From assembly GCA_030248065.1 (NCBI GenBank), contig JASAMV010006535.1, positions 62,001 through 126,000 of the forward strand: a stretch of DNA of 64,000 nt, written 5' to 3'. The DNA is from Rhynchonema sp. JSB1_4. Lineage: Eukaryota; Nematoda; Chromadorea; Monhysterida; Xyalidae. How positions within the stretch are numbered: position 1 is the stretch's first letter; every line of letters begins with the position of its first letter. The position numbers and the translations under genes are program-made. This document shows, piece by piece, positions 3,408-63,683 of the stretch. Under the pieces are notes generated by a model. It searched no databases, was not told where the DNA came from, and worked only from the letters and a program-made list of their open reading frames with translations.

Positions 3408-4671
3408 GACTGTTGACTAAACGATAGCCGCCCATGTCAGCTTGGAACAAATATCGAAACCTATACTTATTGAAGAATGGCAGAGAATAGAGAACACAAC
3501 GAGACGGAGAAAAAAGCAGCAGATGCATCAGTATTATGCAGTTCACAAGGCCGTGACATTTAGCAGGCAGAGTAGGTTACACAGTTTACAACGATACAAG
3601 CAAGTTGACGCGCACAGTTCGCTACAAACAGCACCAAATCAACGGTGACGAATCGTGCACGCCGTGTTGCACACCCGAGATGTCGCTGTGACAGAGTTGG
3701 GGCGGTCGCGGAGCTCAGGGTCACTGCGTTTTTGAACTTGTATCTTAATTATGAAACACCAAGTCAGACAGTCGCAGCGGATTTACGCATGAAACATCAA
3801 CACACAGTGCTGTCGGCACAGATGTTTCATTTCACTAGGTACCCACTAGATTTGACTTATCTGAAGAGCTCCGCGACCACAAGTTTTGGAGCCCAATTGT
3901 GCAGCGCTGCGGTTGTAGTGTTTGTTGATCCAGCTAACCAACTTTCAACTGCACTGACTCAAGTGTTAGCTTTCTTTTGTGTCTGGCTAACCACTTTGCT
4001 TCGGATGCAGCTGCCGGACAAATTATGCTGAGTTTGCAATTCAGTCACCCACACGCTTTTGTCACAAAACTGAATACGGTCTTGTATTTATGATGAATGC
4101 TTGGTCTTATATGGCATCCCTTGTATTTTGACACACGGTAGAAGTTTAGAGCACAACAGGAAATATGATAGAAAACAAAACAACCCCGAGTAAAAAGACA
4201 CAGCATCTAAACAACAACAACGTAAGCTTGGCGATGTATCACAGAACAGCGGCTGATTAAATAAAAATACCTATGATGAGTAACAGATTTACAGGACACG
4301 AAATAAAATGAGGTGCTGTACCAGCCTTTGAAGTATGAAACCAGAGTTCAATAAATGTCCGTTAAAAATCATTCTTATTTTCAAAAAAAACAACGAAAAC
4401 AGAACACCGATTGTTTATAAGCAAAAGCCCACTTCTGTCACTTTCCCACTTTGGCATGAAAATGCATCATTGTGTCAATGCAGTCTTGAACGGTCTCGAA
4501 GCTTGCTAGTGTACTTTCGAATTACAAAATTACAAGATTGTGAAACATCACGCATCCCCCATTTCTAAAAGGAGTCGCACACTGAAAGGCGATGGATACG
4601 GCACGAAAATACCGATGTCGTTTAACATTATATGCAGCAATAAAAACAAATGACACTCTAAAAACAGGTTA
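3408..4671. other. Intergenic, no gene recognised
   Basis: About 1.26 kb between the innexin exon and the 3' end of SLC35C2. Open frames here have no family likeness or splice support. It contains two exact copies of the dispersed TGATGTTTCA motif (3790-3799 and 4541-4550, both minus orientation) and one single-mismatch copy (3820-3829). Confidence 0.5.
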
Positions 4672-7224
4672 TTATTTGAAATGTTGATGTTCAACCATCA
4701 CAACACTTTCGTCGTCGTCATTGTCCGAGTCGGTCATGTTGGATTCGGCCAGCAACGGCTGGTTGTCTTTGGAATTCGAACTAGAAATCCTGCGAACCCG
4801 ACCGCAACCTGCACTCGAACTTGACGATTCGTCCAGCGCACGCTTCAATCGAGTGCTGCTCGGATCGGGTGATGTTTCATATTTGGCAGCATGGTGTTGT
4901 TCAGTGTTGTTGTGGTCGGAAGTGTTATTGTTGTCGTGTTGTGGCGCATGCTGTTGTTGTCTCGATTTGACGTACACATGCAACACAATGCCACTGATGC
5001 AGATGGACAGACCGACGATGTTGAGCGATGTGAATTGGTCACCGATTAACAGATTGGCACAAACGAGTGTGACGATTTCCTGCAATTCATATGTGAACGA
5101 TAAATTGCCATTTACAGCACACACAATCTGGCTAATCCTATCATTCTTCAATAGTAATAATAAAAGAAAAGAAATAAAAAGGTTAAAAGGGTGTCGATAA
5201 TTAAGAACTGGCCTTGAAAATTCCGCACACATTCAGCGTCAAACCAGAAGTGTTCACGAGCAGGAGATATTCTGATGGAAAAAATTGGGATTGAAGCTTG
5301 ATTCCCACATTCTCAATACAACCAAGTAGGATTCCATTTTACCCTTTACCCTACCTGATAGTTCCATGCACAATGCCAGAACACCGCCAGTTAACACCAA
5401 CACACTGAACTTCAATGGAGCCGTGATATCGCGGTAACGGAAAACTTTGGCTGATAAAGATATTTCACGACCTGAAAAGCAATAGAGAATCATATGATGA
5501 CAGCAAATGAGTGATTTCCATCACAAACATAACGTTTCACACTAAAAGTTTTGGATAAAGCCGCGTAACAAGTGATTCTGTTCAAGTGAACATTTCTGTT
5601 CCGCTTATGCCTCCAGTTCGAACATTTTTAGGCGCTCAATGTGGTCCATCATGACAAGATCAATTTTCAAGTAATTAAGCCGGTGTTATGTTTCGCAACA
5701 TACCTTCAAAAGCGAACACCATAGGCAAGGCACAAAGAATCATCCAAGGCTGTACATGATAAATCATATCGACCGGGTTGCGTAGACCTGAATGTTGACA
5801 AAAAACTAGTTTTTTAAGAAATTCCTGAATAAAAAACCGCACCAAAGACCAGGACGCATGTTGGGAAAAGCTAGTCCAGTTGCCTTGACTGAGAAAAAAA
5901 GCGAATTTTCGATTCCGCGATAGAAGGCACGGATTGGCTCGAGGTTTGTCTACTCTTAAGCCTAAGCCTAATAGTAAGCCTAAGCCCAATTATAAAAATG
6001 GAAAGTTGTGACAGATTAATATTATCTATTAGTAGAAGACACTATAAAAAGTGAGAGCTTGTTGAAAAGGAAAAAACAGAGAAATAAATGAAGGCAAAAA
6101 AGCGAGCAAGAGCAAATTTAAAAAATTGCGCAAAAATAAAAACTTTTTTTTGCAAAATACCAAATAAACTAAAAACCTAGCCCCATAAAAAGCAGAGAAA
6201 AAAAACGAGTTCCTAGAGAATCGGCTTTTACAACCATTTTCTAGACTAGGAAAATTAGAAATTAAATTAACGAAAGAAGAAATTAATAATAGCTAGATAA
6301 ATGGCTGTCTTATTTCGGCCATGAATGTAGACAAGCACCTATTCAGAACAGCAGTTAGGCCTGTAAACCTAAGCCTGAGAAAAAGGCAAGTCAATTTTGA
6401 AACTGGACTAGCTTTTCCCAAAATGCGACCAGGACCACCAACTGTGTGAGCCCAATTTTTGCATGATGAATTGCGACAAGGCCCAACGCAGACCGGCACA
6501 CAACGCGGCCAGCTCGACCAATAAAAAGCCGAGAAAATCGAATTGCGGCGAGTGATAGGTAAAGAGAGCAAAGCCGATCGTCACCATTCCGATCACTATT
6601 CCGATTGAGCAACGCTGAAATGGCACGACGTTGTGGGAAACAATGGCAATTGGGACCAACCATGAAACATCACCTACCATTTTTTCCAATCCCAGACAAA
6701 CAGCGAATACGAGAATAAATATGATACAGGTAGATTTGGCCATTGTGTATCTGAAAACACATTGGGTGATTAATTTTAATCAAAACACGCCACGACAGAA
6801 ACTGTCTTGATAAATTTCGACGCAAAACTCACAAGCTGACAGTTATGTACTCAAGTGCCCAGTTGGACAGACAAATGTCGACGCTGGCAGCCATGCCAAT
6901 AGGTGCCACCCTGGTGATGTAGTCCGGCCAAGCAAGTACCGGTCGCACCTCGCCGCTGTGACGCTCCATCAACGGACGCAACATGATGACACCGATGAAC
7001 TTGAGTATATAATGGCACAGCACCATTGATAGCGGGTATTTGAAGTCCTGCATCGATAAGCGAAAAAGTCAGTTTTCGTATTGCATTGGTCGACCAACAT
7101 CACCGCTTATAGCATAACAACAGCCAACCTTGAGCAACCATTTCTGATAGAATGTCAATCCGATCGAGAATGGATAGTAGAGCAAGATTAGCCCAACGAT
7201 TTTGACGGCGTGCGGCACGGGCAT
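4672..7224 (-). CDS. SLC35C2: Solute carrier 35C2-like nucleotide-sugar transporter
   Basis: Eight exons at about 7224-7129, 7047-6833, 6750-6678, 6614-6443, 5787-5704, 5471-5355, 5271-5213 and 5079-4672 give 407 residues. The protein aligns throughout with SLC35C2 (Golgi/ERGIC, triose-phosphate transporter fold, linked to GDP-fucose and Notch fucosylation): LLYYPFSIGLTFYQKWLLK, RVAPIGMAASVDICLSNWAL, YTMAKST, LRNPVDMIYHVQPWMIL, EIVTLVCANLLIGDQFTSLN, ISGIVLHVYVK. About ten membrane segments are expected and the visible hydrophobic blocks fit. The cytosolic tail is long and rich in His, Asn, Ser and Asp. The seventh intron starts with GC (AAG|GCCAGT) instead of GT. The fourth intron holds a TTAGGC run. 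The WDR91-like gene lies upstream on the same strand. Confidence 0.92.
5956..5988 (-). repeat. Interstitial TTAGGC (nematode-type telomere) run
   Basis: Read on the minus strand, this short intronic stretch contains three TTAGGC units plus degenerate ones. TTAGGC is the telomere repeat of nematodes, and interstitial tracts are known there. It is too short to be decisive. Similar TTAGG fragments appear near 34254 and 34290. Confidence 0.5.
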
Positions 7225-7815
7225 TGCACCGGCATACAGACGCGCCAAGATTATGCACACGGGCGATCGAAGCAAAAACTGCAATTTAATGCCTTCTATA
7301 TTTGCGGAAACTTGTGAACAAAAAACAACAAGTGTTTTCAGAATGCACCCTTCGACAGCTTGAGATCCCAATGGTTATGTCATTGCTGCGCAGTCGAAAC
7401 GCCGTCGTGAGTGTCAAACGACAATCACTTACATTTCGAAAGATTTCAGAAAGTATTTGATATTGATTCAACTGGAAAATAATATTTTACAGTCCAGTTC
7501 GATACGCAAGTGGTAACAACAATGAAGTAGAGCAGTGTGACATGCACTGCACCGAACCAGAACGGTGAGAAACCGAAGGAAGCGTCCAACAAAGCTGAAA
7601 CATTTGTATTTTATCGGAAGTCGAGCATAATGTCGCAAACCCTTGGAAGACATTGTATAAACGAAAGGCATAAAGACCACAAACAAGCACACGGAATGGC
7701 ATCTGAGGAGATCACAATTTTTAGAATATGCTAAGTATTCGCTCAAAACAACAGTTTGCAGAAAAGATGAGATCAAAAAGAAACAATTTATAGATGTCTG
7801 GACATCTGTTGAACA
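7225..7815. other. Spacer between WDR91-like gene and SLC35C2
   Basis: About 590 bp between two minus-strand genes. It probably holds the 5' UTR and promoter of SLC35C2 and the 3' UTR of the upstream gene. No further exon is supported. Confidence 0.4.
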
Positions 7816-9232: not shown

Positions 9233-9262
9233 TGCGCAACAAAAATATAAAAGCTGAAAAGG

Positions 9263-12442: not shown

Positions 12443-12593
12443 CCGCTAACTCAGGCACAACATGAACAATGCAAATACCTATTGATTCTGCCATTATTAC
12501 CATTCGTTCGGATTACGGTTTGTTCAGCTATGCAAGTGTACATGAAAGAAAAATAATTCAGCACAGTGTGATGGGATTAAAAACCTTTCAGTA

Positions 12594-12609
12594 AATAAAG
12601 AACTTTATT
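12594..12609. terminator. Convergent polyadenylation signals
   Basis: AATAAA at 12594-12599 would serve MPPE1 on the plus strand. TTTATT at 12604-12609 reads AATAAA on the minus strand for Apollo. They lie in the 322-bp gap between the two convergent stop codons, so the 3' UTRs probably overlap. Confidence 0.55.
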
Positions 12610-12764
12610 TTTCAATTCAAGCCAAAAATTTATTTTCCTGCGATAACAACTTTTTATTAAGAAATGGACAGGATCGAGCAAAATATTTGAGCTAAATCAA
12701 CGGGAACGGGAAATGCAATTTTACGCATATTTTACAAATCAATGAAATGCATTAGCCTCTCGAC

Positions 12765-16119: not shown

Positions 16120-17514
16120 TCATTTCATTTCCATCACGCGTTCCCGTGCGATCACAGATTCATCAAATTGTACCATGTACGTTGTGCCGCTATGCCAGTG
16201 CGCTGTCACTTTACACGGCTACAAACAACGAACTAAATGAATTTTGAAACAAAATTTGGAATGTAAAATCTGGATACCTAAGACTTACAAAGTTACTGCA
16301 GTTGAGCACTGACTCGAGAATACCAGCAATGAATGCGGCGCAATTCAGGCTTCCTGAAACATCAGGAAAGGTTATTTAACACAATCCACTTTGAACCTCT
16401 CGCTCACCTTTATCTTTCGGAATCGATATGAATGTATTGACAATCGGCTCTTTTTCGATTAGCAGATCTGTGCAAAAACCCCCGAATTGGTTTTTATTCA
16501 CTGACGGTACAAATTTCCCAAATAAACCCACAAGTGCACGGATCATCATTGCTTCGCTCGAGCTTGTCGACTTCTTTGCCGAATAAGTTCCTCCACAACG
16601 TTGTCTTGACGAACATCAACATTGGCAACAGCTTGGTCTCGCGCTTGTAGCCCTTTTCTCGCAATACAATAACATCAAGCAGACGGGCGCCGACGAAGTT
16701 GCCCAAGTCAGATAATCTGCGCAAATCGATTAGGACATTGCAAGAAAATTGAATGATGTTGCGTCGACAGCAAAACCCGAAAATATATTTGCGAACCAGG
16801 AGGACTCGAACCCTCGACCTTCGGATTCCATGACCGGTGCTCTGTCGGCTGAGCTACTGTACGAAAGTGGCCTTTGGTCTTGTGGAAGCGCTTAGGGCAA
16901 TGTAGCACTAAATTGAATAGAAACGAAGCGAAATCTGAGCGAAACCAACTTTTGCTGCAATTCAGGCACTGTGTTGACACGATTCTGTGAGTAGCGCACC
17001 ATCTCGGCAAACAACAGGGTGAATGTGGCCAGACTGACCTGAGTAAATGGGGATGGATCACTTTAAAAAATTGTTGGTACCCAATAACACCGCTGGTCGT
17101 TCACCACAGCTGGTGGCACATTGAAAACAGTGCGTATTTGCAACGAAGTTTTCGCCTCCAACAGCTCCAGCACTTCAAACACGTTATCCATGACACACAA
17201 CAGAATTCAGATCTTCGGACTCTGTTCAGCCAGCTACACGCACAAAATATCCCTTCTTTCACTGTGTGAACATTGGTGTCCATCACACACAGGAACCAGC
17301 TGAACACAGCACTGTGTTTATTGTGAATGGACTGCAAGCACGGCTGGTGTGGTTTGCTTTTAATCAACATACGAAGTTCAGTTGTCTTCTCAGTGACTGT
17401 GAGCCAAAAACGATTTGTTGTCTATTCGCAAGCAAAACAAAATCAGTTCACCTCTGATTTTCCACGACTTAGCGTTTTATCCAATATACTGACTTGCTTG
17501 CTGCGAAACGACAT
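16120..17514 (-). CDS. TRAPPC5: TRAPP complex subunit 5
   Basis: Six exons at about 17514-17452, 17038-16950, 16716-16532, 16467-16408, 16353-16289 and 16218-16120 give 186 residues (human 188). It is collinear with TRAPPC5: LDKTLSRGKSE, VSLATFTLLFAEMVRYSQNR, FVGARLLDVIVLREKGYKRE, LWRNLFGKEVDKLERSNDDP, EKEPIVNTFISIPKDK, SLNCAAFIAGILESVLNC and KVTAHWHSGTTYMVQFDESV. TRAPPC5 (yeast Trs31) is a core Bet3-family subunit of the TRAPP tether and Rab GEF acting between ER and Golgi. One acceptor (at 16353) is formed by the dispersed motif, reading TGATGTTTCAG. Intron 2 holds a tRNA-derived sequence. It lies 388 bp downstream of AGXT and 259 bp upstream of Apollo. Confidence 0.93.
16790..16862 (-). 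repeat. tRNA-derived sequence (SINE head or tRNA pseudogene)
   Basis: On the minus strand there is an A-box-like TAGCTCAGCCGACAGAGC and a B-box GGTTCGAGTCC at tRNA spacing. The acceptor stem does not pair (the 5' side is TTTCGTA-like and the 3' side GGTTCGC) and the anticodon arm is imperfect. A tRNA-derived SINE or decayed tRNA gene inside TRAPPC5 intron 2 is more likely than a working tRNA. Confidence 0.6.
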
Positions 17515-17901: not shown

Positions 17902-20455
17902 CTACGCCTTTCGGCATTCTTTCAACGCTTCATCCAATGCAGCAATAACTCGATCCACCGACTCCTTTCGGCTGAAATAGGGAATGGGACATATTCGATC
18001 CGAACCTGATCTAATACATAGGGTGATTCAAAAGTATTATACCGATGACTTAGTTCTTTTTGTAGTCTCATTAAGAGATTGATAAGCTGGATTTGGCCGT
18101 TCATAGACGCATTTTACTGATGTTTCAAGGCTGGTTTTTAATGCTCCCTCACACCAAATCATTGCGAAGCTTGATACTCGGACTGTGCAGTAGTCTTGAG
18201 AATTTTGTTTTGGATTGAGAGCATTTCGAGTTTTAAAAGTCAGTTCCGATGTTTACCAGCGTGAAAGGTGCTCCTTGACCGTAAATAAAGAACTCTTACG
18301 CTGGTTTGAATCAGGATTTTCAATAAACTTCGAAACATCCTTCAATATTGAAGTCACCAAGACGAACTCCGAGCAGACTGTGAAAACCGTGCGTGAAACA
18401 TCACATAACTGAGAACCAAATTGAGGGTAGTTTTGAATCACCCTGTAGTTCAGCATTTTATCAGACCTGTTCTGTCCCATCAATCCAATCCGCCATATTT
18501 TGCCGGCAGTCGGACCAAGCCCGCCAGCAATTTCGATTTTGTGGCTAAAATTGAGTTGTTTTGAACCAAAGACTGTTTTATTGTTGCTAAATCCCAGAAC
18601 TCACTTTGCCATCAGGTGATCGACGACAGTCTTCCACTGCACTCCATCGGGCACGACGATTGTGGTGATCGCTGGGTTACGGTGTTCCTGTATATTCATG
18701 GTCGATGTCCAACCACAAACTATCCATCCCTGTAACAAAAGGCAGATGCTCACCGGATTCTTCACAAACAACTGCAGACCGAGACCCTCCAATTTATCCC
18801 AAAGGTATTTTGTGTTGTCCTGATGTCTACGGACGCAATTATCGATTCCCTCCTCTGCCACCAGAGCACATGCCTCGCGCAGACCGTAAATGTTCTGGAT
18901 TGGACCCGTGTGGTGATATCTGCAATGCAAGGGTGACATGTTTCAATGATTACTTCTTGATTTCTTAGGGGAAATGTGTAAAGACGAGGTACATACACGC
19001 GCGGTTCATTGAAACAGCCCCAATAGTTGGCCAGCTTGTTGATGTCGAAATAGAACGACGGAATTGGTTTCTTGCGATTTTGGACTTTGGTCCTGCAACA
19101 CAACGAAGTGAAAGACAAACACATTGTATCCACAATGGCAAAAATGCTAGATGCGACAAGAAAAAAACCAAATAAGATTTATTCACACCATGCACGTTCT
19201 CCAAACGATATCGGTGCGAGTCCGCACGGCGCACTCAATGCCTTCTGCGTGGCCGAGTAGACAACATCGACCTGAACAACGAAACAAAAAGTATGAGAGC
19301 TGAACAATCAATACAAATGATATATATTGCAAGATCACCTGCATGTCATCCATTCTGAACGGTGCCGTGCACAACGAGGCCACCGTGTCAACCAACAGAA
19401 GCACATTGTGTTGTCTGCACAGAGCACCGATGCCTTCGAGTGGTTGTAGCACGCCACTGGAGGATTCACCATGGCAAACAAACAACACGGCCGGTTTGTG
19501 TGTGGTTAGGGCCTGGATAGAGATGTTAGACGTGTAAACATGGCAACATAAAAGACCAGTTCAACATAGAACCCAATAGCACCTGCGTGTTTTCAAAATT
19601 CACAGTTCGCAGCATACGCCGAGCGCCTAGATTACCTTCTCAATGTTGAGTAAAGATCATGTAGCAGTCTTCACATGCTCAAGGCTTAGGTTCCACGAGT
19701 CCAGTAAGCTTTTGTGCAACTTGCTGGTACATGGTAGGTGCACTATGTAACGTTGACGTGTTCAAACTTGCAGGTGCAAATACAAGTTAACAGATGCAGA
19801 CTGCGCCCCAAAATCGTATAAAAATCACAATAATGCCCTGACCACTTCGATCTGTGTGAGTGTGAACGCATTGCCTGGTTGATTGACGACTTTATGCGCC
19901 TTGCATCCAAGTGCCTCGACCATCATCGCTGCTCGTTGACCCCAAATGCCATTCTCCAACACAACAACACTGTCGTCAGGCTCTAGCAGATTGATGAATG
20001 CACCTTCCATGCCGGAATGGCCTGCAAGTTGTGTGCGGACGTAAATATCGACCCACATTTTGACAAAGATAATGCAAAAGTATACCAGTGGCGCTGAACG
20101 CCAACGTCACAGGATTGTTGGTGCCAAAAGCGTACTGTAGACCGATCTTCACGTCATCCATTATCTGAAAGACAAGCAGGTTAGATATACGTACTTAATG
20201 GCGAAATTTGTGAAAAAATATGCTGACTTTACAAAATTCCGGGTGCAAATGGCCGAGTGTTGGCCAACTAAGAGAATCGGTGACGCGTTGTGATAAATTT
20301 GTCGGTCCCGGGCCGAGCAGCAATTTTTGCGGCACGGTGGGCCTGGCCAGGAGGGACTCCATTGCAGTGGACAATGGACTGATATGATTGCGTATTGGAA
20401 TGCAGCTTGAGCGTCGAGCGATTACAGGCAGAACGCGGCGACACGTTGTTTGCAT
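17902..20455 (-). CDS. AGXT: Alanine-glyoxylate / serine-pyruvate aminotransferase
   Basis: Ten exons at about 20455-20228, 20164-20086, 20021-19843, 19512-19339, 19271-19189, 19092-18997, 18919-18754, 18687-18605, 18544-18467 and 17971-17902 give 411 residues. It aligns with human [66 protein letters not shown], the PLP lysine in [41 protein letters not shown] and [20 protein letters not shown]. It is a PLP fold-type I enzyme converting glyoxylate to glycine. The N-terminus adds about 35 Arg/Ser/Thr-rich residues like a mitochondrial presequence, and the C-terminus is ECRKA with no SKL/KKL-type peroxisomal signal, so mitochondrial location is inferred. Intron 9 carries a mariner-like MITE. 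Confidence 0.93.
18017..18448. mobile_element. Mariner-like MITE in AGXT intron 9
   Basis: Inverted ends AGGGTGATTCAAAA (18020-18033) and TTTTGAATCACCCT (18431-18444) bound about 430 bp. CAGGGTGATTCAAAAG-type ends are common in Tc1/mariner elements. The internal frames are too short for a transposase. Two copies of the dispersed TGATGTTTCA motif lie inside. Confidence 0.7.
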
Positions 20456-35043: not shown

Positions 35044-35378
35044 CAACAGCTATTGTGCATTGCGGTTTTCGGCACACTGTTGGAGGTTTCTCTCACTCTA
35101 GTGTCAAACTTTGAAACAGCCTATTCGTGTCACAGCAGCGTTTCAAATTTTTTCGGTTTTTTTCACGAGGGGCAAACTTCAAGGTGGCCGTGAAACATCA
35201 GGAAGCAACCAATCGGCTCACCAGATTAGGGTCGAGTAACACGATGTCCAAACTTTGTTTATATATACTACCCCCCAAGATCAAGCGCGGTCGAAGGGTT
35301 GTTAACCAGCAGCTTTAAGGCATGACAGTTGTGCACAGGTACATTTATGCAGGTTTGTTGTTCGTTTGGAGCACATAA

Positions 35379-36120: not shown

Positions 36121-36129
36121 GGTATCCAT

Positions 36130-39813: not shown

Positions 39814-40163
39814 TCTGGGGGGGTCGACCCAAACTTGTTGACGATAGATAGATGGTGGGGGTCGCCAAAAATCAAGGTATAGTATAGTGTACTAAGTAGG
39901 TAATAATATGTAAATATTAATGAAAATGTACTTAGATGTACTAAATCCGATGTAGCGCGCGATTTTTTGCCTATTTGGGACAAAAAATACCGATTTTGAG
40001 CCATTTTGAGGCAAAAATACCCATTTTGGGGTCGAAATGTGTTGACGATAGATAGCTTGTTCCCAGAATTTGTTGACGATAGATGGATTTGCCCATAAGT
40101 GTTGACGATAGATAGATGAAATCAAAAAGTGTTGACGACAGATAGATAAATTTGGGGGGGACC

Positions 40164-40638
40164 CAGGGTAGTACTTGGGGGGAGGGGTGGGGGGTCCCCC
40201 CCAAATTCATCTATCTATCGTCAACACTTTTTGATTTCATCTATCTATCGTCAACACTTATGGGCAAATCTATCTATCGTCAACAAATTCTGGGAACAAT
40301 CTATCTATCGTCAACACGTTTCGTTCGACCCCAAAATGGGTATTTTTGCCTCAAAATGGCTCAAAATCGGTATTTTTTGTCCCAAATAGGCAAAAAATCG
40401 GGCGCTACGCGCGGATTTAGTACATCTAAGTACATTTTCATTAATATTTACACATTATTACCTCTTAGTGCACTATACTATACCTTGATTTTTGGCGACC
40501 CGCCCCCCACCATCTATCTATCGTCAACAAGTTTGGGTCGACCCCACCCAGATTTCGGACTTGGGTCATCTATCTATCGTCAACTCATTTCGGGTCCCAA
40601 TCTATCTATCGTCAACACCCTGACCAAGTACCACACTG
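40164..40638. mobile_element. Family C copy nested inside outer C
   Basis: CAGGGTAGTACTTGG at the left, CCAAGTACCACACTG at the right, with GGGGACC on both sides. Together with outer C sequence at about 39826-40150 it forms an inverted repeat of over 300 bp (same iterons and the ATTAATATTTACA core), so the palindrome comes from one family inserting into itself. Confidence 0.75.
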
Positions 40639-44900: not shown

Positions 44901-47900
44901 GCTTCAACCATAACCCTTTCCAGCGTTCCCTTGCGCCGATCCCAGATTTGATTCGTGAGGATCGCGCGATGACAGACATGTACCACGAGAACAGCGGGCT
45001 CAAGGCGACCACCACTCGGCTTAAGGCCGACAACGCACGCTTGCTGGCACATTTGAAAAAACTGGCCGACACGCATAATGTCGACTTGCCGCCTTCGGTG
45101 CTCACAATGGGTGATGTTTCACAACAGGACGTTGTGCTCGGTAGTACGACCGCAGTTGACGTCACCGTGCAACAGCAGGTCGACAGACTGACCGGCAGGA
45201 ACGAAGAGCTGAGATCTGAGCTAAGATCCGCCCAGGATCGACTTAATAAAGAACAACAGGAGCACAATGAGGCGAAAAAAACTGTTAGTCGGACTAGAGA
45301 GAATGTTGCCTGAGCTATCAAGGAAGTACATATTAATACAGCTAAGCTGGACTGATTCAGGTGACCCAGTTGCGCAATGACATTGACAAACACAAAAAGG
45401 TCACGTTCCAACCGATCCAACTGCCCGAAGGCTCAACAGTCAACAGCACCACTGTGATGGCCAACTTGAATGAACACCTCATACAGTTGCTTCAAGTAAA
45501 TGTATATGTTTTTGAAGGATGTCTATCCAATGTCTGAAACTGAAACAACCAAATTTGTTACAATAGTAGTCGTTTTATCCATCAGGAACTTGAACTGAAG
45601 ACTCAACAATTGGAAAACTTGGAGAAGCTCACACGCGGATATGAGACAAAGATATCGGTGATCAAACACTCAACTGGCTTACTGTATCAGCAGCACAAGG
45701 AAGCCGCACAGGTGCGACAATAGGCATCCCATTTCCTTCCTCACCGTGAAAGTGACAGTATGCACTTCAAACGGGCAATTCTCAAAGATTTCAGGATTGG
45801 ATCACCGAGAAAGAGCGCTTGCAAAAACAGCACGACGAAATGAGCGAACGCTATGACACCAGTCAGATCAAACTGGTGGAATTTGACGTTGGTGCATGCA
45901 TTTGCGTGTGTCAGCAAAACCCAGCCTAAATTCTGCCACGTTTTCAGCGATTTCTTGACAATCTGGCACAAGACGAACCAGAATTACGCCGTCGGTTGGC
46001 TGAAATGACCCGCAAGTACACAACAATGCGAATCAACGAAACCATAATGGCTCGACGGTACAACCACTTGCAACAGAGTGAGCTACTGCTGAGAATGGTT
46101 CGTTCTTCATAACACATAAAATGTCTTTGTCTAAGCATCTAAATTTTCCTAACAAAACCAATTTTTTAGGAGCGTGATTCCGTGGCTGAAAATTTAGCCG
46201 ACGCTGAGGCTCGATTCACAGAAACGTTCGCGAACTTGCGGAAAGAGAAGGTATCGAACGTGGATCAGATGGCTAACACTGACAAACTGTTTCGACACCA
46301 AATTCATCACCATTGTTCGTGTTCGATAACACTTTAGGAGATGGCGAGCTACCAAATCTCCTCGCTTCACAACGCGATGGAGAATTCAGTTGAACGAGAC
46401 GAGTACTCACGTTTGGCTGCTGAACTGGAGAAAACCACTGAGCATTGTCGTCAATTGATGGAACAGAACTCGGCGTTGATTGAAAGAGCCAGAGCTGACG
46501 TCGAATCAGAGGTCGGTTTTATAAGTGCGGTGAAACATCAGCCACATGTGTTTTGGAAACCATCCGCTTTCCACTGACAAATTTGTCGACAACACAGGTG
46601 CGACTGCAATCGCTGACCAAGGAGACGGATAATCTACGAAAGATGCTGGAGATCGAGAAGACGAAATGCGCCAAATTGGAATTGATCCTGTCGAATGAAC
46701 CACTGAAACCAACAGGAGACGCTGTTGAGGGCGGTCGAATTGCTGAACGGATTGCGTTGTTGGAAATGAAGGAATTGAATGAAAGACAACGTGCCGAACA
46801 CGCACACACAATGTTTGACAGTGTCAAGGGGCAATTGGTGATCACTGACGCTCGCAATGCAGAGCTGGAGGACAAAATTGCATCGGTTGGGCTCATCTCT
46901 CTGCGCCCTGATATCAATAACCAGACAAATGAAACTTGACATAACCCCCTGGTTTCAGCTTTCCACTCAAAATCTTGAACTACAAAAAATCGAGAAATCA
47001 TTACGTGATGAGCTGACAGGTGACCAATCAAGTGATGCAAGTGGAACATGAAAGCACAATGTCAATTTTGCAGATTGCATATCGAAAGACGTCTATGAAT
47101 CGGCAAAACGGCGAATAGCGGAATTCGAAGAGACGGACGCGAACATGCAGGCAGAGTTGGAAAGAGTGCAGGTAATTGAAGGAATCATCTTGTTTTTTGT
47201 TATGTGCCGATCCCACAAATGGTCTCCCATCGCGCAGGCGCTTTGCGACGTGAGCTACGGTCAAATGCAGTTCTGGCAGAAAACAGCAAAGTTGAGAAAT
47301 GTCGAGCTGGAGGAATTGCGCCAGTGTGTGCGCGATTTGCAGAGTGAAACTGATCAGCAGAGCACCATTGGTTGGTGGTGGGTGAATGAGGGGTTCAATT
47401 GATTGATCGATTACCTGATTCCAGGTCGCCTACATCGCGAAATAGTGCACTTGCGACTGAATGGTGAGAACAAGATGGAAGAGTTGGAACTAGCGACAAG
47501 CCGATTGCAATCACTCGAACATCGATTGTTGCGATTAGAGCAACGTTACGACAGCAATCAACGCATCAATCAACGGCAACGATTCGAATACGTTCATAAA
47601 ACGAATCAACTCAGACGAACTGTTGACGTGAGACTGTGACAAATGTTATAGAAAAACAGCAGTTTGTGAAAAACGTTTCAATTTCCAGACCTTGCGCCAT
47701 CGTTTCGCTGGTTGTGTCACGGTTGAGGAACAAAGCAAGCTCTACGCAAGTCTGCAAAAACTGGCCAAAGATCGTGTGGAAGCGAGACAAAAACTTAGAG
47801 AGGTTTGACAATATCAAAACATGTACATATGTTATATTTTAGGCAGAAAAGACGGAAAATCAAAGCTAACTGGGGCTTTAAGGCGACGGAATCGGCCGAA

Positions 47901-50900
47901 ACGGCTAGTGTGCGTGCTGAAGAGCTGCGGTTGAAACAGCAAGGGCTCGAGGAATTGATCACAACGCTGAATTCATCGGACGTGACCGGACGGGTGCGAC
48001 AATGGCACGATAAGATGGAAGGATTGCGCATTGCTGAGATGCACCTGCAACGAACCAACAAGAAATTGTTGAAACAGGTGCAGCTTGTTGATTCGTTTGT
48101 CCATCAAATGGTTGAACTTTGAGGAACTTACCTACATTTGCAGATCGCTGAAACGGCTACCGACGGTGAGGAATATGAAGACACGATCAAACAGCTAGAA
48201 GAGCAAATAGCGGCGACCAAGAAAGCACTGGACGAGAAGGAAATGCAGTCAGAAATGAGAGAGTCAGAGTTGGAGCAGCGCATCAGCGTTTATGAAGCGT
48301 CGGACCGATGGATTGACCAGGAAATGACCGAGGTGAAACATTAGCGATGAGTTAACTGGATCTTTGCTTCTCGGTTTCTAATTTTCGCTTGTTTTCAGAC
48401 CGAACTAAACCAAGACGGATTGCCCGACCCGACGCTGCCACTTGATGAACAACTGTCAACTGCACTTGCATTGTTGCGCAAATGCCTCAAGACCGTGGTC
48501 GATAAACAACGAGAGCATCAGACGCTACAGAAAGTTAGCATTTTCCTTAAAATATTTCAAGTGTCTAATTCTGCCGTTACTCCGACTTTTCAAGGCGCAC
48601 AACGATCTGCTGGTGCAAAAGCGTCACCTTGAGAGTCGCCTTCTTGCGTCAGGCGCACAGTTCATGTCCCCCAGTGCGAGCAGTGCTCCACAGGAATCGG
48701 TGGACGCAACGGCACTGCGACAGAAACAAGAGGAGTTGGATCACATGTCAAGGATGATGACTATAACCATTGAAAGTCTCAAAGTGAGTGACTTGTTAAG
48801 TTAATATAAAGGTTACGTAGGTACATAAGTCTGTCGGGGTCTTCGAATTTGGTCGTCAGTCGTCCCAACTCACTTACAGGATACTTTCAGAAGCCTTGCT
48901 TGCAACCTTATCAAGTATGACCCCCTGATTTTCAGGCGCAATTAAGTCAAAAGGACGAATCTCTGTCGTCCTACAAGACGATCATTGAATCGGTGCGCAA
49001 CGAACAAATGGATAGAGAGCAGAAATTCAATGAACAAATCAAGCAATTGCACGACAGGATGCGCGAGGAGACCACTGAAAGATTGCAGGTTTCACATATT
49101 CTGGGCATTTGAGTGATTGATTAGTGATGTTTCACAAAAGGCATGCTTGTTGCAGAAAATGCGGACGGACGCAGATCAACTGCTCACGGCCGAGACCGAC
49201 TCGACAATGGAGAAATACGTTCGTGTTTTGTATATAAAAGCCCTGTTTAACAATAATGAACCGATAAAAGCAAGTGCCATCCAACTTTAAAACATCAGGT
49301 AACGAAATGTCTAACGCTCGAAGCCGAACTAGACGAACAACGTGCTACCAACAACATCATCACAAGGAAAATCATTGAGCTGACGGAGGAGAACGAGAAG
49401 ATTCGACAGGAAATGGCGCGGCTCATCAACGAATATGAAGAGAAAATCAAAAAGTTCGCAATTAGCATTAAAGGTCTATTTATACTTCTGACTTCCGGGA
49501 AGTAGAAGTCAAAATCCGGAGAAGTCACTACCACGCAGAAGTGGCCGGCAAGGCAGTGATTGCTTGTAGTGATTGCCTGTTCCGCTCTGTCCATTGACTG
49601 CTGCCTGCCGTCTACTGTTCTTGCTCCGTTCGTGAGCTGACGGAACGGGCAGTCACAAATTTCTGATTGCTACTGCCAGGCAGTCAGAGTATAAACCGAC
49701 CTTAATACACCTATATTTGAGAGGTCTTGAGCAAAAAAGACAAGCAGAATTTTCTAAACATCTTTCTATTAGACTGCAACAGAAACGCAAGCCTGAGCGC
49801 CAGCCGACCACCGCCAGTGAACATAAGCCAACATCAACATCAGCCCCAAGGGTCCCGCCAGAGATACCACAAGCACAAGAGGTCTCCTATCATTTAATTC
49901 AAACCCTGGACAAAATATCAGGAGACACAACCCTATTTTGCAGCATCCAACCGATATGGATTCCCCGATTTCCACTGGCAAGCCATCGATGTCTGATGCA
50001 CGCGATGCGATGCGTTGGAAGTCAGAGTGCACTCGGCTAAAGGGCAGACTCAACGTGGAGACGAAACGCGCTAAAGTTCGTCTGGAAAAACGTTTTTAAC
50101 ATTTTCACAACTCATTTTATATTAATTTTTCAGGAACTGGAGAAAATTGTGGACAAGTTCCGAGCGCAGTTGACAGCAGAGGCAAAACCAGTGCGCGACA
50201 GCAGCAAGACCAGAAACGATTACCCAGATGGCGCTGATACGGAAGCGCTCGTGGTTAGTTTTTTAATCAATTTTTCCGTTTTTTACGAATTAAGCAACAT
50301 AACACTTGCAGAGTAAGATCGACGAGCAGAACGAACGACTGGTGAAATTGAATCGTGATTTGAAGCAGAGTAAAGACAACGAAATCGATTTATCCAATGA
50401 AATCATGGAGTTGAAACGGCGAATGAGTCGAAAAGACGCCAACTTAGTGCAGTTGGAACGGGACAGGGCAGATGCTGAGAAGGCAGCTGACGATGCTGAA
50501 CGAAGACTGCAGAATCTCAGGGATTCCGCTAAAATGGTACGCATAAACAAGCAGTTGTTAGATAGCATCAATCTTGGTCTCGTATCTCGTATCCGATCAG
50601 TCTTCCCTTGGTCATACATACAGTATATGACAACTAACAAACGGCTCCAAATAGCAATCAACAACGACAAATTACTGGCAACAGTTCATCCCGCCAAGAC
50701 AAGCCCGATCCGATCACAACACCAAGTTTAATACCAGTCATAATTTTGAAATAACCCGTGTTTGTTTTGCTTCAGAAGTTGCAAGAGACCGAAAATCGTC
50801 GGCTGACGCAGCGAGTGGCCATTCTTGAACGTCAGCTGCGAGCATACAGGAATGGGACGGCGGGCGAAAAGCCGTTGGAGACCGACTCGCAACAGGTTTA

Positions 50901-53807
50901 TTCTTTGATCGTAGCGATTTTCTCGACATTTTTATCTTCGTGGGAAAACAGTTCATCTTGTTGTCATGCCCATTGGTTAATGGCACTCATACTTCCCCAT
51001 ATAAGACAATGTTTCAGCAACCGGAGGACACTGCTGTTAGTCGATGGAATGAAGTAAAGAAATGGCAAACTCAGGCCGAGAAGCTGAAGGAAAAATTGAA
51101 GTCGAAAGAAACAGAATGCGAAAAGCATACACGAATACTGGAACTGACTCGTGATCAAGTGAAACGGTTCGATGATGTTTCACGTGCTTTGTGCAACCGC
51201 AGAGACAAACGTAAGAGCAAAAGGAAACAAAACGAATGTTTCAGGCTCGAAACCGAAAACTCGAATCTGCTCCGATCCGGTCGACAACGGAGACCGGACG
51301 AAATCGAATACCGACGATTGATGGTCGAAAACGAAAGACTGAGTTATGAAGTTGGTGAAATTGTTTTAACTATGCAAAATTAAGATTTTCTTACTTTCTA
51401 AATTCTGCAGCTGCGACAGCAGCACGACCGACTGACTGCCGATCGAGCAAGCACACAGCGACGGTTAGAAGAATTGGAATCGCAGGCAAAGCGTGTGCAG
51501 CATGAAGCCAGAACACAGCTGATAACCAATGGACATGTCATGAAGGTACCGTTCCCTCACAACGTACCGTATTCATAGCGTACAGTAACCGACATCCATT
51601 CCAAACTCCAGTCGGCATCGACGTCTATTGATGACAGCGGACACGTTGGGTATTTGGACATCACAGAGTTGGTGCACGAGTTGTGCAGAGTGGTGGAGCA
51701 ACAGCAACAGGAATTGAAGGAGCAACGGGCCTTGGTTGAGTCAACCGTCGTTGGGGCGGACCCTCAATTGAAGGTCGGTCCAGTGGGTGCGGCGGCGACG
51801 ATGGGTATGAGAACGTTAGCATAATTTTGGCTAAACGTCAGAACACGAGTTTCAGCGTCAACTCAACACCATCAACCGATTGTACGCGCAGATTCAAGAT
51901 CTGCAGCAGGAGAAGCAACAATTGCAGAAAGAACTGGCCGCTGCGCGTCAGGTTGTCCGAAGATTGAGATTTTCGAAGGTTGGTTACCTCCAATTGACCG
52001 GTCCCATTGTAGGAGCACCCACCGACCACAACCAACACCGTCACCAAGACCACACACCACGTCGCGTGGGCTGCTGAGATCCAAGCGGCGCACTCGTCCC
52101 GCGATAAATTCGCGTCTGAATCGGTGATGCAGCGCGAATTGAGAAAGGTTTGTCTTTTGTTACTCACCTACCTACCAGTCGATTACCGTCATCAGCGGGC
52201 ATAATAACGGGGTGGAGCAGATAGATCGAATGCTTTTGGATTGCGCACTGGCGATGCCCTCGTGGACCATCCATCTGTGTATCAACGTTGTCTGTTCACA
52301 CTTTTTTTGCAGTTGCAATTGTTGAACGCCGAACTGCGTGACGAACTGGATCAAGTGCGTCTTGAGAACGACCAACAGCAAACGGACATCAAGCGACTGC
52401 AACAATTGAGCAAACAAACACGTCGCTGGCATCCGGCCAACGGGCATTCGCTCGTCGTATTGCAACAGCAGTTGCGCGCAAAGGAGGAGAAATTGTTGTT
52501 CAAGGTTTTAGTATTTTCACCTGAAAATGGATCTCCTATTAATTTTGCGAAATAAAAATTTTGTTGTTTTTATTTTTGATCACTTTAGTTTTTTATGGGT
52601 TTTAATTTTCGCACAGGAGAACCGCGTCGAGCAGCTGGAACGCTTGCTGCATCACGAAGTTGAACAGAATCACAAGCTGACGTTCGAAAACAAACATTGG
52701 AAGAAACGAGTTTGATTTCATTTTATAGATCGAAATTTTTGACTTTCTATATTTTGAACACTGCGTGACGTTATAATTGCAGGCAGAAAACTGGGCATGG
52801 AAACCGGATCCGCATGAAACACGTGAATCACTGGAACTACATCTGCGCTCACTCAAGTAAACCTCAGCGTTTGTATCCATGTGTATATTTCCCGTTACAT
52901 GTATATTCACCTTGTTAATAAACGCATTTGTGATTCACAGTCTGGATAGTGTCAATGGGACTAATTACAGATCGGAAATCGCCCGATTAAACGGCGTTAT
53001 TGAGGAATTGAAGCTCGAGAATGACGTGCTCAGTCGTCAGCTAGTGCCGCTAATAGAAAACACAGACGAAATCGTAAGTTGCAGTATTCTCTGCGGAATA
53101 ATTCTGTGACACCGTCAAAGCAAAACAGCAACATATTCAAGCTGCGAATACCTGCTGGTATACGTAATTGATAGGAATAATTGACTAGGTCCTCAATCTC
53201 AGCTGCTTTATGTTGTTTGTTGCTTCGGTGGATATGTGGATCACTTTCGGATCCAGGGGGCCACAGGTTCCTAGACCCGTTTTGGTCAAAGTGGCCACTG
53301 AAATTGGGCCACCATTTCGAAGAGAAGAAGAAAAAAGGACCCCTGAATCGGAGGATTTCACTCTAATGCACTTTAAAGGTCCAAAAAATCGCGCGCGTCA
53401 CACCCATTTCCATAAAATATGGCTGCCAAGTGTTTGCGCGCCACGGCCGCGTGCTATAGGGATAGGGATAACAATAGAGTAGGACACGGTAGATTGTGGT
53501 GGTATGCCCCACGTTTGTTGTTTGAACGATACGACTCTACTGGTATTGATACATAATATGGCACAGCTGTTTGACAATGACAATAATGGTTAAGCCTAAG
53601 CAACTCATTACTTCTAGTTCCAGGTATCACAACAGGGGCACCAAATCTCACATTCAGATAAAACACCGTTCAAAAATTGTTTATGTTATTATACTGTTTT
53701 TATTATTATTACAGGATGTCGATGGATTGAAGGAACGCCTGAAAAACTATGAGCTGCTGCTTCGTGAGAACATCGAGCTGCGACTACAGGCACGTGCTGC
53801 GCGATAG
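41934..53807 (+). CDS. CEP290: Centrosomal protein CEP290
   Basis: A chain of more than 30 short in-frame exons starts at the ATG 41934 (exons 1-2 about 41934-42050 and 42130-42201) and ends with an exon closing at 53807. The product is almost entirely coiled coil. Collinear blocks identify CEP290: VDRLTGRNEELRSELRSAQ (about 45180), LLEMKELNERQRAEHAHTMF (about 46758), KGLEEL-like GLEELITTLNSSD with WHDKMEGLRIAEMHL (about 47944-48040), the DPTLPLDEQLSTALALLRKC block (about 48424), KKWQTQAEKLKEKLKSKETE (about 51058) and VHELCRVVEQQQQELKEQ (about 51670). CEP290 (human 2479 residues) builds the Y-links of the ciliary transition zone. Seven exact copies of the dispersed TGATGTTTCA motif fall within the gene, two of them forming splice acceptors. 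Not every exon join was resolved. Confidence 0.92.
49471..49703. mobile_element. Small MITE in a CEP290 intron
   Basis: The ends AAGGTCTATTTATACTTCTG and CAGAGTATAAACCGACCTT are imperfect inverted repeats about 25 bp long, next to TTAA-like bases. The interior has repeated CCGGCAGGCAGTGA-like words. Superfamily not assigned. Confidence 0.6.
53248..53452. mobile_element. Family K element, end-truncated, in last CEP290 intron
   Basis: It begins CGGATCCAGGGGG and is about 70-75 percent similar by eye to 55018-55240, sharing TTGGTCAAAGTGGCC, CTAATGCACTT and GTCCAAAAA-TCGCGCG. The terminal repeats are lost or degraded. Confidence 0.6.
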
Positions 53808-57580: not shown

Positions 57581-60580
57581 ATGAATTTGACCAACGGAAA
57601 CTACACCGATTACCACAAATCGTACTTGGGCTTTCAAGCAGTCCTCTATTGTTTCGTCGTGCCCCCGTTGTGTTTCTTCGGTAGCATCGCCACCACGATT
57701 GCCGCTTACATTTTCGGTTCGATGCTACATGAGAATGCAAAGTACGGCAATCCTTTTCAAACGACCGATTCTTCTATTTCATGCTGAACAAAATACATTT
57801 GTTTGCAGACGATGTATCGATAATTGGTCATTGAACGTGCTGCTGTTCACATTGTGTCTGTACGATACGTCGTTGCTGGTGTTGTCGGCAGTGACCCTGG
57901 CACCAATGGCATACTGTGACGCATTTCAGGTTTGGGTTCAATGATTTCAACACAGTGCATACTGCACACTGCATGTACAGTACCATCTGCCGTTTTGGGC
58001 TGTGTGAGGCCTGCGCCTGCATGCGCCCATAGGCTCGGCGGATGCAGTCAGCCAAGATCGCAGCTGGAACTGTGGCAGTCGAACCAAACTTCAAATTCTC
58101 ATGTTTTGTCATTTCCAGTCTCACATATTCTGCACGCTCTTCAATCGCACGGCGCGAGTCACCTATCCGTTGTTGCTGTTGGCTCAGTCCGGATCGGTTT
58201 GGTCGTGTGTGGCCGTGGCTTACGATCGATTCATTGCTGTCTTGCATCCGCTGCAACGAAATATGGTTGGCGCCCATAGTGTCCACCCAATAGTGTTTAA
58301 ACATATTTTCATTATTGTGTTCGGAAACGTTTCAGGCATCCACCTACATAAATCTCGGTTTCAGATGTGCACCTCAAAGAACGGTTGGCGCTGCGCGGCG
58401 ACGATCTTCTTCTTCAGCGCCTGTTTCCGAGTGCCAACTTGGTTCGAACTCGCACCCTGGGTTTGACAGCTTGAGTCTACTGTTTCGATGCCTTCTTTGC
58501 CCAATACATACAGGGTGACCCATAAAGTCTCGCGACACTATGGCTTGGCCTTTATTTTGCAATGCTGGCAAACGTCGACGTGACTTTGTGGTCAATCGAT
58601 AGACAATCGCCAAACGTTTTTTCTGATACTCAATGGGTATTGAAACATTACTAAAATAAGTTTATGGCGCTTTTCTTACCTAGCACTCTTAGCAACTTGA
58701 TAATGTCACAAACAGTTGTGTGGATTGAGCATGTAGCAGTCAACAATCATCGACAATTGAGAACCCATCACACAATTACTTGTGTTCCTGCCTGACCGCA
58801 ACCGTGTCCCCTGCTTGGGGTCATCCGTGAGCATGCGTACCGTGTCACTGGTCACGTTAACGGAACTGAGCGTTTAGGTACACTGTTTAGTGAGGTATAC
58901 TGTAGATCATTGTAAAAAGTCGTTAGCTTGAAATCAGCACATTATCCGTTCATCGAGAGATCGCGAAATTCTGAAAATGATACAAACATTGCCTCACACA
59001 GACGAAAATTTTTTCCCCTAGAAAATGAATCATAAATGCAACTCAATGGTGTCTCAATCCGTGCCGTGGGTCATAGAAAACTTGGCGATCGTTCATTGGA
59101 TTGATACCAAAACCGCGCCAAACATGTGCCAGCATAGAAGAATAGGGGCGCAGCAAAAGCGTTGCGAGATTTTGTGGGCACAGTGTACTTGCTTGACGCG
59201 TAGCATCATCTGATGTTTCATTCGCAGCTGAACGACAACGGTGTGTGGGTGTTGCAACCAACGGCCATGTCCACCAGTCGTTCCTACCGTCTCATCTACT
59301 ACTGCATTCTCACCAATCTGTTCGTGTTTCTGTTGCCTTGGGCAATCATGATCGGCCTCAATGTGTCCGTTTTGACCGCTGTTCGCCGGCACATTCAGAT
59401 GCGACGCAATATGGCCGGTCGACGACGCGCGCCCAGGGTCAGGTGGGTAGCCACTAAAATGCAGTATACAGTGTAAATACATACGTATAAAAGAATTTTT
59501 TCAGGTTATGCAACAGTGTTGAGGTCTTGCTTTCAAGTTTCTGTTAGGTCGGAGCGCATTTTTAGGATAATCGCTTTTGGATAGCTTCCAGAATAACAGC
59601 AAAAGTGAAACATCACAAGACCAAAACGTAAATTTCCGATCCAACGGCGAATTGCATCGCACGCTGGCAGCAATGTTGGTGTTCGTGTCGTTTGTGGTGT
59701 TCAATCTGCCGGCGACCATTGTCAACACGATCGAACCATTCCTGCAAGTCACTGGCAACAACTGGCAAATGCTCGATTGGTATATTGCGTTGCTCAGGTT
59801 GGATCAGACTGAGCTCAACTCACAATTCGAATGGTGACAAATAACGATAAGATGTCAGCTTGGCACAGATACGCGTTGGTAGCCGCGTTTTTGTGTACCC
59901 GTTGTTGGTTTCCTCTCGGTACGTTTCAGGATAAACCTCATAGCGCCAACCTACAGCCAAAGGCTAAACAAAGTCTGAAACCCTAAAGTACGGTGTGTGT
60001 ACATACAGAGTGCGGGTAATAAAGTGCGCCGGCGGTTTCAAGCTTCAGCTGAGCCAGTACAATTAGGATTGTGAGGTCATTATCGTTTCCAACATTTTGC
60101 CGTGAAACATCACCCAATTGTTATAGCACCGGCTCAGTGTTGGTGATCATGAATTCGCTGAGCAACGTGCTCATCTACTGCGCGATCGGGCAGGATTTCC
60201 GTGCTCTGTTTCTCAGTCATCTGACCTGTGGTCTGAGCAGTCGACTACAGGCGCACACGCAGGCACGAATCAATGGCGAAGTTCAACAAGACGGGTCGGT
60301 AACGGTCGGCGCCACCATCACCGCACAGGGTGTAGGACGGTACTTGAAAGGCAAAGGGAACCATCAACGGAACATACGCATCGAGGTGCAGGAACCGAGT
60401 CAGAATGGAATCATGGGACCGCGGTATCCGATCAATCAACCCAGTGGCTCTCGTCGACCACCGCGACGCAGCAAAACACTCGGCAAACAGGGCAGTCGCG
60501 GTGCATTCCTACTCAACACACGACCGTCCATCAGCAGCGTGCCCAGTTGGAGCAGTATGGGCCAGGACACCACGGTCTAA
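57581..60580 (+). CDS. Rhodopsin-family GPCR, peptide (FMRFamide-like) receptor type
   Basis: Seven exons at about 57581-57741, 57809-57929, 58119-58265, 58365-58460, 59228-59442, 59585-59797 and 60127-60580 give 468 residues. The N-terminus has glycosylation sites (NLT, NYT). TM1 is FGSIATTIAAYIF, TM2 LNVLLFTLCLYDTSLLVLSA, TM3 ends CVAVAYDRFIAVLHPL (DRF in place of DRY), TM4 is RCAATIFFFSACFRVPTWFE, TM5 LTNLFVFLLPWAIMIGLNVS, TM6 MLVFVSFVVFNLPATIVNTI (no CWxP) and TM7 MNSLSNVLIYCAIGQDFR (N-S-x-x-N-x-L-I-Y replacing NPxxY). This pattern fits invertebrate FMRFamide/myosuppressin-type receptors that couple to G proteins at the plasma membrane; ligand unknown. The long C-tail is basic and Ser-rich. 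Three dispersed-motif copies lie in the gene. Confidence 0.85.
58508..58560. mobile_element. Mariner-like terminal fragment in GPCR intron
   Basis: ACAGGGTGACCCATAAAGTC is typical of a mariner terminal repeat. I could not find a matching opposite end in the 58461-59227 intron, so this is probably a solo or decayed end. Confidence 0.4.
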
Positions 60581-62089: not shown

Positions 62090-63683
62090 ATGGCATCTTT
62101 GGGTTCAGAGTTGCACGAACGTTCGTCGAAAATGAATCGTTCAATGTCACTTCGTGCGCACAAACTGACGGCGTCGCAAGCAACGCTGCTCAAACAATTC
62201 TGGCCAACCATCGACCACTATGAAGTCGGCGCTGAAATGTACAGACAGGTTGGTACCGTCGAAGCCGCAGCTGTACCTCAGTCTCCTCACCGGCATGCAC
62301 CCGCTGCGACCGGTGTTGACCCCGTTCTTGACTGGTGACATCATCACATCAGCACGCTGTTTGGCTGCCACAGTTTTGCACACGGTCGATATTGTCTGCA
62401 TACTGTATGTTAACGCGTGCTGGCCAGAAAAGTACTGTTAGATACGAACGGTGGCCAGTAAAACAAGTACAGTACTGGCTGCCCTCCACCTTACATGTAT
62501 TGATCGGAATGGGCTTCTAATGATCCTTGATTGTGGAGCACGGCGGACACAAAGCAACGCCTGCTCGACCCGTCTGCTTACACATCACACTCCGAAATTT
62601 TGGGGATTGGGTAGTAACTTCTGCTCAATCTTAGAGATTCACTTGACGCAAACTCCGGTGGATCACCCAAAAGCTGTTCACTGTAACAAAAAAGGGTCGT
62701 AATTTTGTCAGGTGTTCATACAACATCCCGAGATCCTGCAATTGTTCGCCGCCATCCGCGACGAAGGACCGGTGGACGATAATGAAGAGTTCATCAAACA
62801 AGTCGCTGTCATCATCGACGTGCGTTTGGTTGATGTTTCATTGTTGAATTGACAAACAATGCGAGCCACGCACAGTAGACATCTGGTGCATTCGCAGTGC
62901 AGTGACATGACCTGATCTATATGTCCAGGTCGCAGCGCAGGCAGGCAACCACGTTAACTTCGTGTGAGCTTTGCGGTACGACTTGTGATGTGGCATGGGC
63001 ATGATTAATGCGAAATAGTAGCGGAAACCACCCATTAACGAAATGAGACTGATTATCAATGCCTTTCCTTCCAGTACTTCACCGAGGCCATTCAAATGTG
63101 CGAAAGTCAGGACTCGTTGATTGCGTTTGCCAACGCCACTGGGCGCAGACATAAAAGGTTAGATGTACTGTGCTTGGATGTATTATTGGAACTGACAGAC
63201 CGTTTTGCGTCGGACCGTTCGTGCCCTCGTCCAAACAATGCCCAATTGTTGTGCAGATTTGCCGGCATCCGTCCCGAGCACTGGTACGCATTCCGATCTG
63301 CACTGAAGACATCGATGACTAAATATCTACTCCGTGACGGCCTCGTGACGGCGTCGGAGCGTTGCACGATCGTGCAGGCGTGGTGCACATTCACAAGCAC
63401 AATTGTGAACGAAATGAAGATCGGATTCATGGAAGCGGAGCCAAACGACCTGGAGCAGGGCACCACCGACACGCTGCAATGTCCGGCCACTAGTCATCAG
63501 AACAACTCAATGCCACAACTGAAACATCACGATTCGGAGACATATCTCGAGGTTGAAAGCGAGAAATCGTTGAGTTTCTTCAAACGAGCCACAAGTCTGA
63601 GAATTGGCAAGAAAAAATCGGCGTCCAAATCCCCGAGACGACATCAGAGCTCAACCAGAGCGCCGGAAACAACAGGAGAATAA
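62090..63683 (+). CDS. Globin with N- and C-terminal extensions
   Basis: Four exons at about 62090-62248, 62712-62819, 63075-63157 and 63257-63683 give 258 residues. The globin domain starts near LTASQATLLKQFWPTID (A helix). FIQHPEILQLF supplies the CD1 Phe (F65). EEFIKQVAVIID places Gln83 at E7, and ATGRRHKRFAGIRPEHW supplies the proximal His115 (F8); the 32-residue E7-F8 spacing equals neuroglobin. A distal Gln instead of His is known in some invertebrate globins. The 24-residue N-terminal and roughly 85-residue C-terminal extensions are Ser/Lys/Arg-rich (RIGKKKSASKSPRRHQSSTR) and suggest membrane or protein binding rather than bulk oxygen storage, as in many nematode globins. Two dispersed-motif copies occur, one in the last exon. 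Confidence 0.85.

Follow-up and report, generated by a model that had tools for sequence, protein, structure and literature searches.

In nematodes, the promoter motifs of PIWI-interacting RNA (piRNA) loci derive from the motif of the small nuclear RNA (snRNA)-activating protein complex (SNAPc) and share its GTTTC core; most clade V piRNA loci keep only the GTTTC half of the SNAPc motif, which is its 3′ half, and in some nematode species the piRNA loci are dispersed (as described in the part of PMC6436959 drawn on here). Here we analyze a 64,000-nucleotide stretch from the nematode Rhynchonema sp. JSB1_4 (assembly GCA_030248065.1, contig JASAMV010006535.1, positions 62,001 to 126,000; hereafter the window), together with the assembly from which it comes, and focus on the ten-letter word TGATGTTTCA. 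We argue that this word is very probably the core of the proximal sequence element (PSE) of the animal’s snRNA promoters in a dispersed and specialized form. A second point of reference lies in bacteria, where uptake sequences and HIP1 are cases of one short exact word that is massively over-represented on both strands, coding DNA included.

Abundance and form of the dispersed word

The window contains 20 exact copies of TGATGTTTCA between positions 3790 and 63529, 9 on the plus and 11 on the minus strand, in agreement with a first-pass annotation, made from the letters of the window, which had counted at least 20 on both strands and judged this far above chance. Dinucleotide shuffles of the window gave a mean of 0.42 copies and a maximum of 3, and 0 of 100 reached 20; the over-representation claimed by the annotation therefore stands, but its expectation of about 0.12 was lower than the shuffle mean. 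Across the assembly as counted (203.9 Mb in 5,747 contigs) the word occurs 18,829 times in forward and 18,727 times in reverse orientation, a total of 37,556 or one per 5.4 kb, against 345 occurrences of a control consisting of TGATGTTTCA read backwards (an excess of approximately 109-fold). Such a genome-wide count had been proposed as a check in the annotation, and a result near random expectation, which would have spoken against the motif, was not observed. Random excess is set aside as an explanation on the basis of the shuffles and the reversed-word count. Density had been described as uneven and does look so in the window, yet the copies in a sample of 262 kb, divided into 51 five-kb bins, follow a nearly Poisson distribution (variance/mean 1.15, P 0.22). 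At one place (L022, positions 6024, minus, and 6102, plus) two diverging copies lie 78 bp apart inside a single 350-aa open frame. A literature search with the TGATGTTTCA string gave no title on a genomic motif among the matches listed.

Flanks were compared in a set drawn from the window, from other stretches and loci, and from 60 further sites taken from 100 listed genome places. There were 135 sites with enough flank, 128 of them distinct (69 earlier and 59 new), and removal of 8 near-identical ones left 120. At these 120 sites TGATGTTTCA is preferentially preceded by GYTnSS and followed by C (G at -6 in 38%, T at -4 in 47%, G or C at -2 and -1, C at +1 in 43%), and beyond roughly eight bases the flank signal is only weak, at -14 and +10. 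Some copies are repeat-borne (window 35191, L010 5142 and 5977, L021 2331); the motif sits in a conserved context there.

Words one mismatch away from TGATGTTTCA number 92 where a third-order model expects 55 (63 exact sites, 317 kb), the excess falling mostly on TAATGTTTCA (16), TGATGTTTGA (11) and TGATGTTGCA (10). Genome-wide, TAATGTTTCA occurs 6,526 times against 620 for its control, words with at most one mismatch 92,371 times against 15,893 (one-mismatch words alone, 54,815 against 15,548), and the seven T-to-C variants covered by TGATGYYYCA minus the exact word 5,225 times against 1,366 in a like control. The ratio of the one-mismatch halo to the exact sites is thus about 0.5 to 1 and depends on the background chosen. 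We take TGATGTTTCA to be a putative binding motif with a few tolerated variants; neutral turnover is also compatible with the counts.

Relation to the snRNA promoter element

The genome carries U1, U2, U5 and U6 genes. Among the U1 promoters, 5 of 10 contain TTATGTTTCA and 2 of 10 the exact TGATGTTTCA (L052 and L055); 5 of the 8 U5 promoters contain TGATGTTACA, two a near variant of it and one TTATGTTTCA; the 8 U2 promoters contain TGATGTGACA or TTATGTTTCA and their relatives; and TGATGCTACA is found in 4 of 5 U6 promoters. The two sets of U2 genes differ in this element, which is TGATGTGACA-like in L029-L033 and TTATGTTTCA-like in L034-L036.

A weight matrix was built from the 120 dispersed sites, and its best match on either strand was located in the 120 nt before each snRNA. 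In 24 of the 26 U1, U2 and U5 promoters this match is in sense orientation and 34-38 nt upstream of the RNA start; 4 of the 5 U6 promoters have it at 46 nt. The exceptions are two U1 copies, L050 and L054, and L042, a partial U6 copy (L040 and L041 are likewise partial). The snRNA matches L037 and L043-L046, which score below cut-off, were excluded, and the U1 copy L056, also below cut-off, was included; as copies of one gene are related, the 31 promoters are not independent tests. The placed matches in L029, L036, L056 and L059 have scores equalled or exceeded by many ordinary 120-mers of the genome, and the U6 scores are reached by about 6% of such 120-mers, so that in these weak-scoring promoters it is the fixed place and not the score that constitutes the evidence. 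The flanks of the snRNA elements resemble the GYTnSS and +1 C of the dispersed sites. Because a matrix made from dispersed sites finds its match at a fixed distance in snRNA promoters, we conclude that TGATGTTTCA is a form of the animal’s own snRNA PSE, i.e., of its SNAPc site, and the link to an snRNA-type promoter drawn in the first-pass annotation is borne out.

The dispersed form is nonetheless distinct. A GAATGAC or GATAGAC block follows the core in 19 of the 26 U1, U2 and U5 promoters (23 of 26 with GAACGAC and GAAGGAC counted as well), whereas neither GAATGAC nor GATAGAC occurs within 30 nt after the core at any of the 120 dispersed sites. Furthermore, TTATGTTTCA, the commonest U1 core, is near background genome-wide (2,024 against 1,728) while TGATGTTTCA is 109-fold in excess, so that the dispersed form and the commonest U1 form differ by a single base, the dispersed sites favoring G at position 2 where the U1 type has T. 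For the U5 core TGATGTTACA the excess is about threefold (1,549 against 477), far short of that of TGATGTTTCA. The snRNA-type variants TTATGTTTCA and TGATGTTACA are not dispersed in the same way as TGATGTTTCA.

PIWI genes and the piRNA mini-promoter proposal

A Piwi family search of the genome returned 54 exon matches. Pieces of 52 aa from C1663, C3368 and C4595 are of PIWI type and lie one to three residues apart; these nearly identical exons (L134 in C1663, L135 in C4595, L136 in C3368) represent recent duplicates or unmerged alleles. The C1663 piece scored 1.9e-15 with Protein piwi (6kr6) and 3.5e-4 with Argonaute-2, and the joined PIWI-domain exons of C1663 scored 1.5e-50 with PIWI chains and 7.9e-20 with Argonaute-2. 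A piece from C3198 scored the opposite way (1.2e-34 with Argonaute-2, 2.2e-12 with PIWI), hence the comparison separates the PIWI and Argonaute clades. A small, midpoint-rooted tree groups this PIWI, which has a long branch, with the PIWI of clade V nematodes (support 85/87). This tree, together with the protein matches and the 5′ end of U1, points to a nematode. A copy of the motif, flanked by the PSE-like GGCTGGC, lies within the C1663 stretch, inside an apparent GT-AG intron and in the same orientation as the gene; the PIWI gene therefore seems to be part of the motif-bearing genome, which argues against a contaminant.

A Ruby-type piRNA system is characterized by thousands of single-motif loci and by an upstream core with GTTTC that is akin to the SNAPc/PSE motif of the same species, and it needs a PIWI-clade Argonaute. 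Each is found here, the first as motif sites and not as expressed loci. We propose that TGATGTTTCA is the core of a SNAPc-type element which is related to the snRNA PSE and has been specialized and spread through the genome, giving tens of thousands of mini-promoters that most likely belong to the Ruby (piRNA) kind. In this model each dispersed site would be bound by a SNAPc-like complex and transcribed by RNA polymerase II from a start some 35 nt downstream, a distance like that at U1 and U5; the resulting short, capped RNA would then be trimmed and loaded on PIWI. We favor this proposal because of the genome-wide excess, the PSE-like core and flank, the absence of the downstream block, the PIWI genes and the published Ruby/SNAPc precedent, and on these genomic features we consider it reasonably probable that most copies are piRNA-type mini-promoters. 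A more far-reaching version, in which a nematode lineage outside the known keepers of piRNAs would have some 37,000 piRNA mini-promoters in coding exons and introns, on both strands, with many genes making piRNAs from their own exons, is doubtful.

Several observations weigh against the proposal. Downstream of the 120 sites, which were not selected by expression, there is no fixed-distance YRNT peak (mean 9.0 per distance, standard deviation 2.9; highest count 15, at T+12, +33, +58 and +60), and the fixed-distance T start suggested in the first-pass annotation was thus not found at these sites. Nor is there a clear pausing step from high to low melting: GC content is 0.51 at +51..+70 and 0.44 at +101..+130 at 68 sites, a post hoc comparison in the direction expected for pausing, and the mild GC rise is weaker in the 120 sites. 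The motif likewise shows no avoidance of exon-like frames, which it occupies at roughly the rate of control words. Open frames of 100 aa or more, which are only a stand-in for exons, contain 33 of the 57 motif sites of the 262 kb sample (18 of 57 in sense, 18 of 57 in antisense), against 72 of 162 sites of the control TGANNNNTCA; dispersed Pristionchus piRNAs are intronic according to the cited part of PMC6436959. The same part describes Romanomermis as having a GTTTC-bearing SNAPc motif and no piRNAs; the existence of a GTTTC-type PSE is thus no proof by itself. In published surveys, Piwi outside clade V turned up in plectids only (that part of PMC6436959) or was not found at all (the portion of PMC4323106 cited here). 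The earlier suggestion of a piRNA-type (Ruby) promoter element is therefore partly supported, by the snRNA-element form of the word and by the PIWI-clade genes, but not by any start or clear pausing signature.

The main rival to the piRNA proposal is another use of the same bound factor, in which a SNAPc-like or Myb-type factor would occupy the sites in chromatin marking, insulation or chromosome pairing, mostly without a short transcript. The PSE link of the dispersed sites, their even spread, their presence in exon-like frames and the lack of a start signal or clear pausing signal all suit this explanation, but the presence of PIWI and the precedent for PSE-derived piRNA promoters (PMC6436959, in the part cited) speak against it, and we regard it as unlikely. 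Less likely again is a DNA signal that propagates itself by molecular drive, through gene conversion or biased repair, in the manner of uptake sequences or HIP1, the likeness to the PSE being secondary. Such a signal would fit an exact word on both strands, exon-like frames included, as well as the surplus of altered copies among the seven T-to-C variants and the one-mismatch words. However, the core and flank match the snRNA PSE, the third-order model shrinks the one-mismatch excess, and what remains is uneven, concentrated in TAATGTTTCA, TGATGTTTGA and TGATGTTGCA, more like tolerated variants than even decay.

The remaining explanations are very improbable. A splicing signal combining branch point and acceptor (TGATGTTTCAG), which the annotation had also listed, is suggested by several window copies that, in our reading, directly precede exon-like sequence, but AG ends at +1 in 21 of 120 sites, about the plain rate of G there, with no AG peak at other distances; 66 of 120 sites have an AG within 12 nt, compared with 62 that have one at +30..+42 and 55 at -30..-18, and stop triplets are similar before (1.16) and after (1.07) the motif. 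The AG positions refute this as a general account, although a minority of sites may double as acceptors. Origin as the relic of a short transposon or introner of very high abundance would explain the few copies that ride in a repeat, but 120 of the 128 distinct sites have flanks unrelated apart from the short preference, as the annotation had claimed in calling them isolated copies and not those of one transposon, and the absence of a long common flank beyond the weak signals at -14 and +10 largely refutes a transposon relic.

Window copies and comparison with known systems

Copies of TGATGTTTCA in the window, with their surroundings (gene names in brackets are those of the first-pass annotation)
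Feature	Position	Strand	Remarks
motif copy	3790..3799	-	exact match; antisense to 140-aa open frame
motif copy	4541..4550	-	exact match
motif copy	4870..4879	+	exact match; in open frames of 170 aa (same strand) and 186 aa (opposite strand)
motif copy	6663..6672	-	exact match; in 123-aa open frame, same strand
motif copy	16355..16364	-	exact match
motif copy	18118..18127	+	exact match; ~0.5 kb from class-V aminotransferase frames (18601-19557, minus)
motif copy	18394..18403	-	exact match; in 115-aa open frame, same strand
motif copy	35191..35200	-	exact match; in dispersed repeat common to L010 and L021
motif copy	43799..43808	-	exact match; antisense to 95-aa open frame (CEP290)
motif copy	43933..43942	+	exact match; (CEP290 region)
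motif copy	44702..44711	+	exact match; (CEP290 region)
motif copy	45112..45121	+	exact match; in open frames of 177 and 178 aa
motif copy	46531..46540	-	exact match; in open frames of 180 and 146 aa
motif copy	49125..49134	+	exact match; (CEP290 region)
motif copy	51173..51182	+	exact match; in 184-aa open frame
motif copy	59211..59220	+	exact match; (GPCR region), weak 7tm_1 match at 58008-58463
motif copy	59606..59615	-	exact match; (GPCR region)
motif copy	60103..60112	-	exact match; antisense to 175-aa open frame
motif copy	62831..62840	+	exact match; near (globin)
motif copy	63520..63529	-	exact match; antisense to 214-aa open frame (globin)

Among the gene names given earlier to the window, Pfam supports DOT1, the class-V aminotransferase and eL36, the seven-transmembrane receptor stays below cut-off, and CEP290, SLC35C2 and globin were not confirmed (20 of 100 listed open reading frames). 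The eL36 protein has mixed metazoan matches at 52-73% (E below 1e-18), including Trichuris (72%), Trichinella (70%), Dracunculus (67%) and Plectus (63%), and for the aminotransferase the best matches reach 55% along the whole length and 63% where 72% of the query is covered, named nematodes lying at 45-50% (best 120 of 406 matches). The window also contains a perfect 71-bp tandem repeat in three copies (29123-29335) and two facing tandem arrays with a unit of ~30 bp built on GTTGACGATAGATAG (40036-40321), and GTTGACGATAGATAGA is among its commonest 16-mers. A borderline Rfam tRNA match at 16791-16863 (29.8 bits, cut-off 29) was not found by ARAGORN, and a search for the spliced leader SL1 gave no match here or in the control genomes.

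Like bacterial uptake sequences and HIP1, TGATGTTTCA is over-represented as an exact word on both strands, coding-like DNA included; unlike them, it occurs in a eukaryote, is not palindromic and resembles a promoter element of the same genome. With the snRNA PSE bound by SNAPc, the dispersed sites share the core type and upstream flank of the animal’s U1, U2, U5 and U6 elements, but they are without the GAATGAC/GATAGAC block and use TGATGTTTCA in place of TTATGTTTCA, a one-base difference from the commonest U1 element through which it becomes testable which SNAPc subunit or partner distinguishes the two. Should the sites not be piRNA promoters, an snRNA promoter word every 5.4 kb, exon-like frames included and giving rise to no RNA, would be stranger still.

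The closest likeness is to the Ruby motif of type I piRNA loci in Caenorhabditis, Pristionchus and Plectus. Here the core is longer and exact (TGATGTTTCA), the part of the element that is kept is the upstream and not the 3′ half, and the sites, known from DNA alone, show no start signature and no clear pausing signature and also lie in exon-like frames. As in the Ruby system, a core that contains GTTTC(A) and is akin to the snRNA PSE recurs at tens of thousands of dispersed single sites in a genome that also encodes a PIWI protein, and if these sites are piRNA promoters they would add a further case of worm piRNA promoters growing out of the snRNA promoter.

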